This document shows positions 9,846-15,474 of a stretch of DNA of 37,224 nucleotides, in pieces. Where the stretch lies: contig PWHV01000025.1 in the NCBI GenBank assembly GCA_003555025.1, positions 1 through 37,224 of the forward strand, read 5' to 3'. How positions within the stretch are numbered: the stretch's first letter is position 1; every line of letters starts with the position of its first letter. The position numbers and the translations under genes are program-made. This DNA is from Methanomassiliicoccaceae archaeon (GTDB taxonomy: Archaea > Thermoplasmatota > Thermoplasmata > Methanomassiliicoccales > Methanomethylophilaceae). Below the pieces are notes generated by a model. It did no database searches and had not been told where the DNA came from. It saw nothing but the letters and a program-made list of their open reading frames with translations.

Positions 9846-12800
9846 ATGCTCCGAGCCCTACATCCGCGAAGCGACCGCAGAGGGCAGATGCCCTTCGCCC
9901 TGGTGGCGGTGGTTCTGTTGGTCCTCACCAGCTATTCGGTGGTGGTGTTGGCAGAGGCGGAGAGGGCCGGCGCCGAGCTGGAGGCGTCCGAAACGGTGCT
10001 GCGGACCCTGGAGGATGCCGCCGGCGAGACGGCGGACCATGTCCGGGCCACCTCGTTGGCGGTGCTGCACTCGATATCCCGGGAGGGCGGGCGACTGGAA
10101 CCCGAAGAGCTGCAAACCCTGTTCCAGCAAAGGCTGGACGAGGCCCTTGAGCACAGCTACCCGCGGGAAGAGGCGGGGGTGCTCAGGACCATAGACGGGC
10201 ACGGGATCGCGGCGCGGACGGTGTTCCTGTCGCTGTCCCCGGGGGAGCCCCATGCCGCCTCCCTGCCCTCGTATGCCAAGGTCGTCGGCACCGTCGAGGT
10301 GAACGTATCCGCTGATGGTGCCGAGCTCGGCAGGAAGCTGCCAGTTGACGCTGAGGCGCCGGTGCCGCTACCTCTCCTCTCCGGCCTTCTCGGGGACCAC
10401 TCCTCCATCCTGGAGGGCAGCCGGTCCGAGCTCGGCAGGCTGATGGCATATCAACTGGGCTCGTTGGCGCAGATGAGGGCCCTCTCCGGGGCCTCTGCCG
10501 TCGGCAGCACGGAGCGGCTCTTGGAAGATGAGGACGCCAGGCGGTCGCTGGATTCGTCCCTGGACATCCTCGAGCGCGGTTCTTTCCGCTCCCATGCCGG
10601 TGACAGCAGCCTCCCCGCCGAAGCATCGCTGCTGGACGCCGCTGAACTCTTCCTCCCCGGCGAGGCGCTGGAGATAGACCTCAACGAACTGCTGGCGCAG
10701 TCATTGTACGCCATCGTGGACCTGACCGTCCTGAGGTGGATGGAGTACCTGGATCTTATCAGGCTTCCTATCGACCTCTTCGACCGCGCCGTCCACGACA
10801 TCTCCCATGTGGTGGAGACTTTCGCAACCGCCCTCGGCGACGGACCCCCCGCCGCGACCTATCTGGAAGAGAGGATGGCGGACGCGGGGCACCGACCTGA
10901 TGAATACCGGCACCTGCACACGGGAGGCGTTGCCGCGCTGCATCTGCCTCCGTTGAGGGCTTCACTGGCCGGGGGCACAACTGTGGAAGGCGGCACCGTC
11001 ACGGTCGAGGTGCCGGAGGTGGACATATTCGATAGTGAGGGCTGGGAGGCGTTCATGCCCATCTACCGGGAGGGCCTTTCGGGCCTCAGCAACAGGCTCC
11101 AGAACATCATGAAGGACGCCGCGGCGCATGCGGCCGCCTCCCACGAGCTGCCGACGGTCTCGGTGGCGGCGGACCCATACGACGACGTGCCCTTCTCCCA
11201 GGCCCTGGCGGAGGCCGTGGAGGAAGCGATGCCTATGGCGAAGCAGGCGTTGAACAGCGCGGTGGAGATGAGCGTTAGGGAGAGCGCCTCCGCCGACCCC
11301 ATGGGGCTTGAACTCGCCTCCTACCTCGAGGAGTACAGGACCTCGCTGCTGCGTGAGGATGCGGCGTACGAGGCCATGCTCGAAGCGGCCACGGAGCATT
11401 ACTTCGACGGGCTGCTGCGCTCCGATGCGGCGGAGGGCTTCGCCGACCCCGATGCCATGAGGGCGTTGCGCAGCGACGTGGAGATGAGCATGATCCGCGC
11501 CGGGACCCATTCCCACATATGGGACGAGAGCCGCGCCGCCGGCGATGCCTCCATAGAACTCATAAACAGGGTGTTGCGCAGCGAGGGCGGCGGCCCGGGG
11601 GCCCTCTCACGGACCTTGGGGGATCTGGCCTCTGGAGCCATCGAAGGCGTCCCCGCCATTGCTGACGAGGTTCTCTCATCGATGCTCTCGGTGGCGGAGT
11701 CCATGGCTGAGGGTAGCGGGCTCTCCACCGGCAAAGGGGTGGAGCTGATGCACGGCGAAGGGATGCGGCTGCATGACAGCAAGGGCGGAGTGCACCTCCA
11801 GGACCTCGAGGTCGAGCGGGAGGGGGAGGGGGACATTGACGTCAGGGTCCTAGCGCCGGAGGACGTCAGGGGAGGGGCGGTCCGCTACATCGGCCTGGAT
11901 CATTGGAGTATGGCGCCGTACATGAGCACGGCCATAGTCAGGGTGCAGGGCGAGATTCTGTACACGCTCTCCACCGCCGAAGGTGACGGACCGCTCCCCG
12001 TCAGCGAGGCTAGCGAAACAGTGAAGCTCGACCTGGAGGTGAGGGTCCCTGTGCATACCGCTTGGCCGCTGCAGGGGGTAGAGTACCGCAACAGCAACAC
12101 CCTGGGCAGCGACATGGCAGCGACGGTGCTGCGCAGCGCCATGCCCATGATGGAGCATCTGCGGGGCGCGTTCAGCGCCTGCGACTCAGTGTTCGCGTTC
12201 GTGGCCGAGGCGGGGATGAAGCTGAACTCCTACGCCACCGATTCCATGTTGGCGGTCACGAAGGCGGTCATGGGCCCGGTGCTGGCGCTGCAGGAGGCTC
12301 TCGAGGAAGGCTTCAGCAGCGTGATGATGCACCTGTTCGAGGGATTCCTCGACGACGCGGGGAATATAAAGCTGTCCACTGACATATTCGGCATGAGACT
12401 GGATTTGGAGACCAACCCGTTGGAGATGGCATTGGGACAGACAAGGGACCTGTTGCGCATGACCTTGAGCGTCAACATCAGCGATGTGCACCTGTCGGCA
12501 TCCTTACGCCTTCTGCGGATGGATGCGGGGGATTATTACGTCCTAGGGACGGGCAACATGGGGATGAACGATTGGTACGTCTCCCTAACCATCGACCCGT
12601 CGATGAGGGTGTACCGGCACCTGGTGGAGGTCAAGGGGAACGTGGGCGACCATGGCTTCCAGATGAACTTCCCTCAGATAAGGCAGTACGAGACCTTCAG
12701 CCTGAGGCTCTCCCAGGTCCCTGCCGTCGCCCCCTTCATCTCCAGCATACCGCTGCCCTTCCCGGGCATGCGGGGCAGCGTCGATGCGGGCATGGAGCTC

Positions 12801-13874
12801 AAGTACGACATCCCCCAGGCCACGAACGTGGTCATCAACGAGGTTGAGACCAACCCCCCCGGTCCCGATTCGGGGAGGGAATGGATAGAGCTGTTCAACC
12901 CTCTCAACAAAGAGGTGGACATCAGCGGATGGACAGTCAGCACGGGATACGGCAACGGACGCCACCATCAGCTGCCTGCGATTGCCCTCGGCCCCGGCGA
13001 GTTCCATGTCCACGTCTTCCCGGTGCGAACATTGTACAACGGGGACGGCCTGGCCCTTCCCCGCGGCGAGTCCGTCATGCTCTGGAACGCCGATGGTGCG
13101 ATGGTCGACTCCACCCCCTGGATCGTCGACACCGACGACGATTCCCGGACCTGGCAGCGGGAGTACGACGGCTCCGACCGCTGGGTCTTCGCTGAGGGAA
13201 CCCGAGGGGAGAGCAACGGCCCCCGGACCGCCACCGCCGACCTGGGGCAATGGTTCGTCTCCGAGCTGAGAGAGTCAGCGCTGACGGCGATGACCAGGAT
13301 GACCAAGTCCGATGCGGACATGACGATATTCGCTGATTTTCTCCATGAGACCATCGAGATACTGATAGACAGGGTGATGAAGAGACTGGCGAGCTGCATC
13401 GTGGAGATGAAGCTGTTCATATACCTGGGCGTCAGCGACCTGACCTCATCCCTCGAAGGAGGGATGGAGCTGTCGCTGGTGGCCGGCAGGGACTTCGCCC
13501 TGGAAGGTCTGAGGTGGATACTGGGGTCGGTCAAAGGCGCCGTGGACGACATACTGAACCCCGGCAACGGCCATAGAGAGGGGGCGGACTTCCTATTGGA
13601 GGAGTCGCATCTGCGCCTGAGTTTCGTGTCCAGCATGGGGCCGCCCGGCTTCGTGGGCCGGCTGAGCGATAACGACCGTTACGAGGTCAGAGCGATGGTG
13701 CAGATGAACCTGGCGGCCTTGGCTTCATTAGGGGGAATGGCCCGGGATGACAAGAGGATAGGATTCGGTGTCCTGATATCCGGTGTCCCGGGCAATCTCC
13801 TCCCGCCGATGTTCAGGGCCGACCCCGGCAGCCCCGCCGACGTATGGATAATGAAGGGCAGCATAACCTATTGA
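9846..13874 (+). CDS. Very large pilin-like surface protein with lamin-tail domain
   Basis: 1342 residues. The N-terminus has the shape of a class III (pilin/archaellin) signal: basic residues and RRGQ, then MPFALVAVVLLVLTSYSVVV (15-34) as the hydrophobic helix. The body is long, Ala/Leu/Glu-rich and mostly helical. Residues about 993-1123 form a lamin-tail (LTD) domain: VVINEVETNPPGPDSGREW, then DISGWTVSTG and a DSTPW segment. LTD domains occur in secreted archaeal and bacterial proteins as binding modules. A second helical part follows. It is probably anchored outside the membrane; its function is unknown. It starts 51 bases after the TrmB gene. Confidence 0.85.
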   Translation: MLRALHPRSDRRGQMPFALVAVVLLVLTSYSVVVLAEAERAGAELEASETVLRTLEDAAGETADHVRATSLAVLHSISREGGRLEPEELQTLFQQRLDEALEHSYPREEAGVLRTIDGHGIAARTVFLSLSPGEPHAASLPSYAKVVGTVEVNVSADGAELGRKLPVDAEAPVPLPLLSGLLGDHSSILEGSRSELGRLMAYQLGSLAQMRALSGASAVGSTERLLEDEDARRSLDSSLDILERGSFRSHAGDSSLPAEASLLDAAELFLPGEALEIDLNELLAQSLYAIVDLTVLRWMEYLDLIRLPIDLFDRAVHDISHVVETFATALGDGPPAATYLEERMADAGHRPDEYRHLHTGGVAALHLPPLRASLAGGTTVEGGTVTVEVPEVDIFDSEGWEAFMPIYREGLSGLSNRLQNIMKDAAAHAAASHELPTVSVAADPYDDVPFSQALAEAVEEAMPMAKQALNSAVEMSVRESASADPMGLELASYLEEYRTSLLREDAAYEAMLEAATEHYFDGLLRSDAAEGFADPDAMRALRSDVEMSMIRAGTHSHIWDESRAAGDASIELINRVLRSEGGGPGALSRTLGDLASGAIEGVPAIADEVLSSMLSVAESMAEGSGLSTGKGVELMHGEGMRLHDSKGGVHLQDLEVEREGEGDIDVRVLAPEDVRGGAVRYIGLDHWSMAPYMSTAIVRVQGEILYTLSTAEGDGPLPVSEASETVKLDLEVRVPVHTAWPLQGVEYRNSNTLGSDMAATVLRSAMPMMEHLRGAFSACDSVFAFVAEAGMKLNSYATDSMLAVTKAVMGPVLALQEALEEGFSSVMMHLFEGFLDDAGNIKLSTDIFGMRLDLETNPLEMALGQTRDLLRMTLSVNISDVHLSASLRLLRMDAGDYYVLGTGNMGMNDWYVSLTIDPSMRVYRHLVEVKGNVGDHGFQMNFPQIRQYETFSLRLSQVPAVAPFISSIPLPFPGMRGSVDAGMELKYDIPQATNVVINEVETNPPGPDSGREWIELFNPLNKEVDISGWTVSTGYGNGRHHQLPAIALGPGEFHVHVFPVRTLYNGDGLALPRGESVMLWNADGAMVDSTPWIVDTDDDSRTWQREYDGSDRWVFAEGTRGESNGPRTATADLGQWFVSELRESALTAMTRMTKSDADMTIFADFLHETIEILIDRVMKRLASCIVEMKLFIYLGVSDLTSSLEGGMELSLVAGRDFALEGLRWILGSVKGAVDDILNPGNGHREGADFLLEESHLRLSFVSSMGPPGFVGRLSDNDRYEVRAMVQMNLAALASLGGMARDDKRIGFGVLISGVPGNLLPPMFRADPGSPADVWIMKGSITY

Positions 13875-13915
13875 GCGGGAAAAGGTTAAGCGTTTCCAAT
13901 CACTAAGAGGAACGT

Positions 13916-14278
13916 ATGCCCGACGGGAGCCCCGCAGAACCGGTAAGAGGAGGCTGCCAAGAGAGGCTGGCGATGGTGGAGCGCACGCTGTTGGCTTTGC
14001 TGGGACTGCATGTGGTGGAGGAGACGGTGGGGCCGGGGGCGTCGCTGAAGAGCTTCGCGGGCTTCGCGGAGGCCCGCGGGGACGAAGGACGATGCCCCAT
14101 ATGCCTGGAGTTCGTCGAGATTGGTGAAGAGGGTTACCGGCTGACCACCATGGACCGCGACGACCATCATTTCCACCGTGCCTGCCTGGACGCCTACATG
14201 GAGTCCCAGGTCCGCAGTCACGGCCGCAGCTCGACAAACAATTTAATCCTAGAAAGGCCTGGTCGGGGGACGGGATGA
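13916..14278 (+). CDS. RING-like (single zinc site) small protein
   Basis: 120 residues. The C-terminal half reads CPICLEFVE (C60, C63) and DDHHFHRACLDAY (82-94). This lines up with a RING-H2 finger (C-P-I-C … C-x-H-x-F-H-x2-C): C60, C63, H87 and C90 match the first zinc site. Of the second site only H84 is present; the third ligand is D82 and no C-x2-C follows. So one zinc site is complete and the other is lost. Residues 18-50 form a helical region. The stop overlaps the next start (ATGA), so it is coupled to the HD protein. Ubiquitin-ligase activity is not implied; a zinc-stabilised binding module is the cautious reading. Confidence 0.72.
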   Translation: MPDGSPAEPVRGGCQERLAMVERTLLALLGLHVVEETVGPGASLKSFAGFAEARGDEGRCPICLEFVEIGEEGYRLTTMDRDDHHFHRACLDAYMESQVRSHGRSSTNNLILERPGRGTG

Positions 14279-15474
14279 GCGGCCTCAGCATCGACCTCAT
14301 ACACCATTTCTTCCAGGCGGCGCATATGCGCCGCTGGAACGACCACCTGCGGCCGGTGGAGCTCATCGAGCTCGATAAACAGGCCCACAAGGCGGTTATA
14401 GCCTGGACCTTGGCCAAGTTCGAGGAGAGCGAGAAGAACGTGCCCATAGATTGGACCGCCATAATCGAGGGTGGGATGTTCGAGTTCCTGCAGAGGGTGA
14501 TACTCACTGACCTCAAGCCGCCCGTCTTCCATCGCATCAAGAGGCAGAAAGGGGAGGAGCTGCAGAGCTTCGTCATGGGGGAGGTTTCCCGTATAGAGGG
14601 CATCGACGAGGCCATGCTGCGAAGGTTCGAGGATTATTTCCAGCAGGAATGCTCCAGCGTGGAGAGGAGGGTCCTGAACGCCGCCCACTACCTAGCCACC
14701 GACTGGGAGTTCAAGATAATCTACGGCGCCAACCCGCGCATGTACGGCATCGAGGAGACCAAGAGGGAGATCGGCCTGCAGATCGAGGACCACTATGACC
14801 TCATCGGCGTCCAGAGGATACTCCTGGAGAAGAAATCGTTCGGTTTCATAGATTTCTGCGGCCAACTGCGCTTCCAAAGCCGCTGGGCCCGCTCGCCGCG
14901 GGTGCCCATGACATCTGTCCTGGGCCATTCGATGATGGTGGCGCTGATGTCGTTCCTGCTGTCCAGCGGCATGGGCGACTGCCCCCGCAGGATCTACAAC
15001 AACCACTACACCGCGCTCTTCCACGACCTCCCCGAGGTGCTGACCAAGGACATCATATCCCCCGTTAAGCGCAACATCGGCGGGCTGCAGGAGATAATCG
15101 ATGGCTTGGAGCGGGAGTTGGTGGAAGAGAAGCTGCTGCCGTTGCTGCCCTCCCGCTGGCATGGCGATATGCGCTACCTGCTCTTCGAGCCGGGCAGCGA
15201 CAAGGTCCGCGTCGACGGGAACGAGCGCCGCATGGAAGGGGACATTCCCGCGAAGCTAAACAACAACGGCAGCGACCCGCGGGACGGCACCATGGTGAAG
15301 ATGTGCGACCTCCTGTCCGCATATCTGGAGGCGACGGTGTCCATCAAGCACGGCATGGCGTCGAGGACCCTCCGGGAGGGTCAGCGGGACATGGAGGAGC
15401 GATTGTCCTCCATGAGGCCACGCGGCATAGACGCCGCTTCCTTGGCGAAGAGCATATCCCGCATCGACGTATGA
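14275..15474 (+). CDS. Tandem HD-domain phosphohydrolase, YfbR-like
   Basis: 399 residues. The second half has the signature of YfbR-type 5'-deoxynucleotidases: R203-W204, then H218 fifteen residues later (GHSMMVAL), H250-D251 with E254 (LFHDLPEVL), and D345 (MCDLLSAYLEA). These are the metal and substrate positions of that family. The first half repeats the pattern weakly: R20-W21, H38, and TAIIEGGMFEFL where the H-D pair has become E-G. It therefore looks like an internal duplication with a dead first copy. Family members remove phosphate from deoxynucleoside monophosphates; the substrate here is unproven. It is translationally coupled to the RING-like gene. Confidence 0.85.
   Translation: MSGLSIDLIHHFFQAAHMRRWNDHLRPVELIELDKQAHKAVIAWTLAKFEESEKNVPIDWTAIIEGGMFEFLQRVILTDLKPPVFHRIKRQKGEELQSFVMGEVSRIEGIDEAMLRRFEDYFQQECSSVERRVLNAAHYLATDWEFKIIYGANPRMYGIEETKREIGLQIEDHYDLIGVQRILLEKKSFGFIDFCGQLRFQSRWARSPRVPMTSVLGHSMMVALMSFLLSSGMGDCPRRIYNNHYTALFHDLPEVLTKDIISPVKRNIGGLQEIIDGLERELVEEKLLPLLPSRWHGDMRYLLFEPGSDKVRVDGNERRMEGDIPAKLNNNGSDPRDGTMVKMCDLLSAYLEATVSIKHGMASRTLREGQRDMEERLSSMRPRGIDAASLAKSISRIDV

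Follow-up and report, generated by a model that had tools for sequence, protein, structure and literature searches.

Two zincs are the defining feature of RING fingers. In the hemiRING of human UBR4, a single zinc is bound through CxxC...HxxC at the proximal site, and the distal site is replaced by hydrogen bonds (PMC10873205). The proximal face of this domain binds E2, the contacts including an Ile at Cys1+2 and a Glu at Cys2+2, and the domain has no working linchpin; its authors termed such a proximal-site single zinc unprecedented in 2024 (PMC10873205). In the SP-RING it is the proximal zinc site that is lost, whereas the distal one is retained (PMC10873205). In archaea, srfp from Caldiarchaeum subterraneum is a RING-H2 E3 with two zinc sites and a linchpin (R69) that is encoded in a ubiquitin operon and is active in vitro (PMC5654768). 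Its Cys1-Cys2 stretch is marked as an interface, the I30Q substitution abolishes activity, and mutations of I30 and W58 abolish or impair it (PMC5654768).

Here, we describe a protein from a Methanomassiliicoccaceae archaeon, hereafter half-RING, that has in common with the UBR4 hemiRING the single site made of C-x2-C and H-x2-C, the loss of the distal site and the absence of the linchpin Arg. The Ile and Glu that contact E2 in UBR4 correspond to I62 and the invariant E65 of half-RING. Furthermore, the residue three positions before the ligand His is conserved in both, being Asn in UBR4 and His in half-RING. However, the UBR4 hemiRING belongs to a protein of 574 kDa in which an 11-helix UZI domain stabilises it, whereas half-RING is a free-standing protein of 120 amino acids. 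The likeness may reflect parallel loss, and the two are compared here by layout rather than as putative homologues. Like srfp, half-RING is archaeal, small and RING-H2-like, and its I62 and Y94 match I30 and W58 by position; unlike srfp, which has two zincs and belongs to a ubiquitin operon, it has one zinc site and is encoded elsewhere in the genome than the operon for the ubiquitin-like protein (Ubl). Half-RING also carries the signature of the Arkadia/ARK2C RING-H2 fingers (zf-RING_2, PF13639), that is C-x-[hydrophobic]-C-L-E followed by H-x-F-H-x2-C-L-D-x-aromatic. It differs from these RINGs by the absence of Cys3, Cys7, Cys8 and the linchpin and by a four-residue insertion before H84.

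Lineage and conserved residues of half-RING

The half-RING gene (13916..14278, plus strand) is located in the window, i.e. the whole stretch of 37,224 nucleotides analysed, which is a 37-kb contig within a 1.4-Mb genome. Besides its translation, the gene has homologues in six further genomes: all five other sampled genomes of its own genus and one sister genus. Its nearest named relative is PUJZ01000047 (Methanomassiliicoccaceae archaeon), with 83% identity. It is absent from the other 95 family genomes searched (102 in the family set). The alignment comprises eight sequences from seven genomes with 50-83% identity, and the dN/dS values of 0.15-0.44 in 15 of 15 pairwise comparisons indicate purifying selection. 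The distribution of homologues and these dN/dS values therefore identify half-RING as a real, selected and lineage-specific gene. The ORF at its 5' side (9846-13874) encodes a protein of 1342 amino acids that combines a lamin-tail domain with a hydrophobic N-terminal stretch and a start weakly resembling DUF7286; this ORF sits immediately 5' of half-RING in both genera. The 3' neighbour is an HD ORF (14275-15474).

Among 390 genomes sampled phylum-wide, one weak extra match (L042 in G342) was obtained and rejected as a further half-RING, since it is a canonical two-site RING protein. This proline-rich protein of 251 amino acids (G342 C59, 952-1704), found in the same phylum, has a RING-H2 scoring above the Pfam cut-off; its appearance is eukaryotic or viral, and its contig may be a contaminant. 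Other zf-RING_2 matches above the cut-off are scattered in Thermoplasmatota (G204, G270, G090, G099, G093, G322 and others; L097-L107), many of those at L097-L107 being embedded in long ORFs (about 800-2800 codons). A viral or phage origin of half-RING was also rejected, since no relatives were found in phage records or IMG/VR contigs.

The initial annotation of this DNA had assigned C60, C63, H87 and C90 to the first zinc site of a RING-H2 finger (Cys1, Cys2, His5 and Cys6). The translation places C60, C63, D82, H84, H87 and C90 where it had them. The four site-1 ligands are invariant in all eight sequences, and homologues lacking them, which it had named as counter-evidence, were thus not encountered. 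It had also noticed that the final C-x2-C is missing, which extends to the whole family, as no homologue has a Cys past C90. The Asp that it had seen in place of a Cys of the second site (D82) is present here but is not conserved, the column containing D/E/N/S/K/H/V in the eight sequences. A complete loss of the second site has to be abandoned: His4 is kept as H84, and three ligands (Cys3, Cys7 and Cys8) are gone.

The first ligand pair, C60-P-I62-C63 (14093..14104, plus strand), has both Cys in 8/8 sequences. Position 62, between Cys1 and Cys2, is hydrophobic (I/M/V/L) and corresponds to an E2-contact position in UBR4 (Ile4840). The second pair belongs to H84-x2-H87-x2-C90 (14165..14185, plus strand), which is invariant in 8/8 sequences and aligns with the HxFHxxC of Arkadia-type RINGs. 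H87 and C90 would complete zinc site 1, and H84 would be the leftover His4 of the lost site 2. Further downstream, Y94 and the tail QxxSHGR...N109 (14195..14242, plus strand) cover the region where Cys7-x2-Cys8 would fall and where Cys is absent. Y94 occupies the Cys6+4 aromatic position, which is Trp in many RINGs. In addition to the ligands of site 1, E65, H84, Y94, H102 and N109 are invariant in the eight sequences, as are S101, G103 and R104.

The ubiquitin-like operon and the HD enzyme as candidate partners

The genome that carries half-RING encodes a UQ_con (E2) protein of 171 amino acids (51.8 bits, above the cut-off; 0/14 control genomes) adjoining a ThiF (E1) protein. Reading of the locus showed an E1(ThiF)-Ubl-E2-JAB operon in a single strand run (G000 C18:4825-7091, locus L062, minus strand). 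The C-terminus of the Ubl is PDPEGG, and the JAB protein (a JAMM protease) bears HSHPGIGCFMSETD. The same gene order is repeated in 20 loci read across Methanomassiliicoccales, one of which is cut by a contig edge within the Ubl gene, so that its E1 is out of view. In loop 4 of E2, YP[FY] (YPF/YPY) with its aromatic residue is kept in 19 of the 20 loci, although loop 7 differs from the canonical SPA. A ubiquitin-like system was not found described for Methanomassiliicoccales in the full-text papers searched, and a prior description may nevertheless exist.

Since the genome encodes this E1-Ubl-E2-JAB set, a ubiquitin-type role is possible for half-RING, and binding of E2 is plausible. After degeneration of the second cross-brace site, H84 would be its remnant, with H102 and N109 perhaps serving as braces. 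Half-RING would then dock partners through the face around the remaining zinc (I62, E65 and Y94), by analogy with the UBR4 hemiRING, the most likely partner being the E2 of the resident system. Being made together with the HD enzyme, it might bring E2~Ubl to this enzyme in order to tag or regulate it. As it lacks Cys7/Cys8 and the linchpin Arg, it would be expected to activate weakly or to serve purely as an adaptor, and not to be a full E3. Taken with its whole mechanism, our preferred proposal, that half-RING is a lineage-specific hemiRING-like protein that docks the resident E2 and acts on the HD enzyme, is a tentative one. That it is a free-standing archaeal hemiRING docking the E2 of an order-wide system and steering it to an HD nucleotide-metabolising enzyme is unlikely.

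Several data argue against docking of E2. I62, E65 and Y94 recur widely among RINGs, and the needs of folding may by themselves explain why they are retained. Loop 7 of the resident E2 departs from the canonical sequence. Furthermore, the half-RING gene is not part of the Ubl operon and occurs in just two genera, whereas most of the 52 relatives (out of 61) with E2 lack it. Lastly, E2 is tracked by a different protein, which has a two-site RING. This protein, which is close to Pfam PF14446 (Prok-RING_1) and occurs order-wide (G000 C7:66615-67268, L063:4607-5374; loci L043-L052 and L084-L095), has a hydrophobic N-terminal stretch, a RING with both sites in C4HC3 order and zinc ribbons. It is present in 50/52 genomes with E2 and in 0/9 without it, the two E2-bearing genomes that lack it being 73% complete. 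In genomes at least 90% complete, 34 have both, eight have neither and none is mixed. This co-occurrence is significant over all 61 genomes (Fisher P 3e-9, uncorrected for phylogeny), and losses by genus look independent at least four times (g2, g4, g13 and part of family f6). The gene is co-directional with the proteasome alpha gene, and located about 400 nt upstream of it, in at least five genera. The two-site RING protein is therefore a better E3 candidate than half-RING and is likely the E3 of the order. It occurs in the same organism as half-RING, and the CxICL and FHxxC stretches of the two look alike. However, a derivation of half-RING from it is not supported: hhalign gave a probability of 11% in the wrong region and BLASTP found no significant match.

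The HD-domain enzyme (14275..15474, plus strand; 399 amino acids) has a YfbR-like 5'-deoxynucleotidase domain at residues 191-305. It matches PF12917 (E 2.7e-20) and PF13023 (E 5.1e-18) in Pfam and YfbR (2paq) in the PDB (E 2.4e-4), and H218, H250-D251, E254 and D345 are intact in an alignment of 10 homologues. Its N-terminal region of about 185 residues (14275-14840 in the window) is strongly conserved order-wide, has zero Pfam matches and could represent a second, degenerate HD domain.

Half-RING and HD genes adjoin in 6/6 species with an intact junction. The ATGA coupling reported by the initial annotation, i.e. an overlap of the TGA stop and the ATG start, is present here but is limited to two of the six species examined, a gap of 5-6 nt separating the genes in the other four. 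Between the stop of the upstream gene and the ATG of half-RING lies a candidate promoter element, AAAANGTTAA (13880..13889, plus strand), which is kept at the same place in 6/6 species aligned and is the sole exact copy in the window. That this conserved element precedes the pair and occurs in exact form nowhere else in the window suggests a single transcript for both genes. The HD gene is found in 43/61 relatives and lies beside half-RING solely in the two genera. Elsewhere, the ORFs upstream of HD (23 loci) encode an aminotransferase, small membrane proteins and others; having read them, we rejected a diverged half-RING 5' of HD in other genera. As the HD enzyme occurs throughout the order, as a rule without half-RING, it is no obligate partner of half-RING.

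From the adjacency of the two genes, half-RING may control the HD enzyme, as the initial annotation had suggested. The main alternative to docking of E2, and one that we consider about equally likely, is that half-RING is a single-zinc treble-clef or RING-derived accessory subunit of the HD enzyme only and acts outside the ubiquitin-like pathway. The adjacency in two genera, with an overlap or a very short gap, is consistent with such a subunit, as is the single transcript suggested by AAAANGTTAA. However, most of the order has the HD enzyme without half-RING, and therefore any control would be a late addition; moreover, no distinctive partner surface was identified on the HD protein.

Resemblance to RING fingers

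In profile searches, which the initial annotation had proposed as a check, RING families were the best sequence matches in both Pfam and the PDB. Half-RING matches zf-RING_2 with an E value of 3.5e-4 and 21.2 bits, below the cut-off of 27.3. Within the family, zf-RING_2 is matched by 7/8 members (best E 6e-5) and zf-C3HC4 by 8/8, every one of these RING matches being below the curated Pfam cut-offs. The RING-like core (residues 59-98; 14090..14209, plus strand) covers positions 2-37 of the 44 of zf-RING_2, the Cys7/Cys8 end being missing. With the family profile, the best PDB chains are Arkadia-type RINGs (E 6.8e-4). Ten shuffles of half-RING with five ligands fixed gave no RING matches, and the likeness to RING therefore exceeds ligand spacing.

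AlphaFold models of the whole protein and of the core (two sequences, from the window and from L009) had pLDDT values of 50.7 and 48.4, which leave the fold unproven. Both low-confidence models show a beta-hairpin, then a helix beginning at HxxC. The ligand pairs lie close to the hairpin and where the helix begins, as would be expected of a treble clef, but at a pLDDT of about 50 this layout is suggestive at most. Foldseek searches with the weak model gave nothing useful.

Compared with the described classes, half-RING has site 1 of a RING-H2, lacks a complete site 2 and scores below the Pfam cut-off. Its sequence fits the hemiRING, with a C2HC single proximal site and without the distal ligands. 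It has no room for the UZI helical subdomain, as it has just 120 amino acids with Pfam matches confined to the zinc region, and it keeps the zinc site opposite to that of the SP-RING, namely the proximal one. Half-RING is thus supported by its sequence as a RING relative that would keep one zinc site. We consider it probable that this small protein combines helices in its N-terminal part with a domain derived from RING-H2 that binds one zinc via C60/C63/H87/C90. The initial annotation had proposed an early or reduced RING relative with one zinc. It was right in substance, the profiles, shuffles and invariant site-1 ligands all pointing this way, and its interpretation is partly supported: of its two terms, "reduced" is the better one, as half-RING is confined to two genera whereas a two-site RING protein occurs throughout the order.

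Half-RING could instead be an unrelated C2HC zinc protein with a convergent likeness to RING, involved for example in nucleic-acid or small-protein binding. The RING scores below threshold, the lack of a confident fold and the lack of a significant alignment with the two-site RING of the same genome would agree with convergence. However, every family member prefers RING models, and the match goes past spacing, CxICLE and HxFHxxCLDxY occurring in RING-like order and spacing, which makes convergence rather unlikely. A cryptic full RING, its site 2 being restored by H84 and H102 together with a ligand that is not Cys or that comes in trans, is very improbable since homologues have no conserved Cys/His past H102 and D82 is variable, even though H84 and H102 are invariant and H102, at Cys6+12, is close to the Arkadia-type Cys7 position.

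Implications for the order

If half-RING is indeed an archaeal hemiRING of 120 residues that docks E2, the half of a RING responsible for this docking can exist on its own. It would then be a small and tractable protein with which to ask what purpose the second zinc serves. The methanogens in which it occurs have genes for E1, Ubl, E2, JAB and the proteasome as well. The two-site RING, which tracks E2 and in several genera neighbours the proteasome alpha gene, may matter more than half-RING: it opens an archaeal route from E1 and E2 through E3 to the proteasome to direct testing beyond the Asgard and Aigarchaeota groups.
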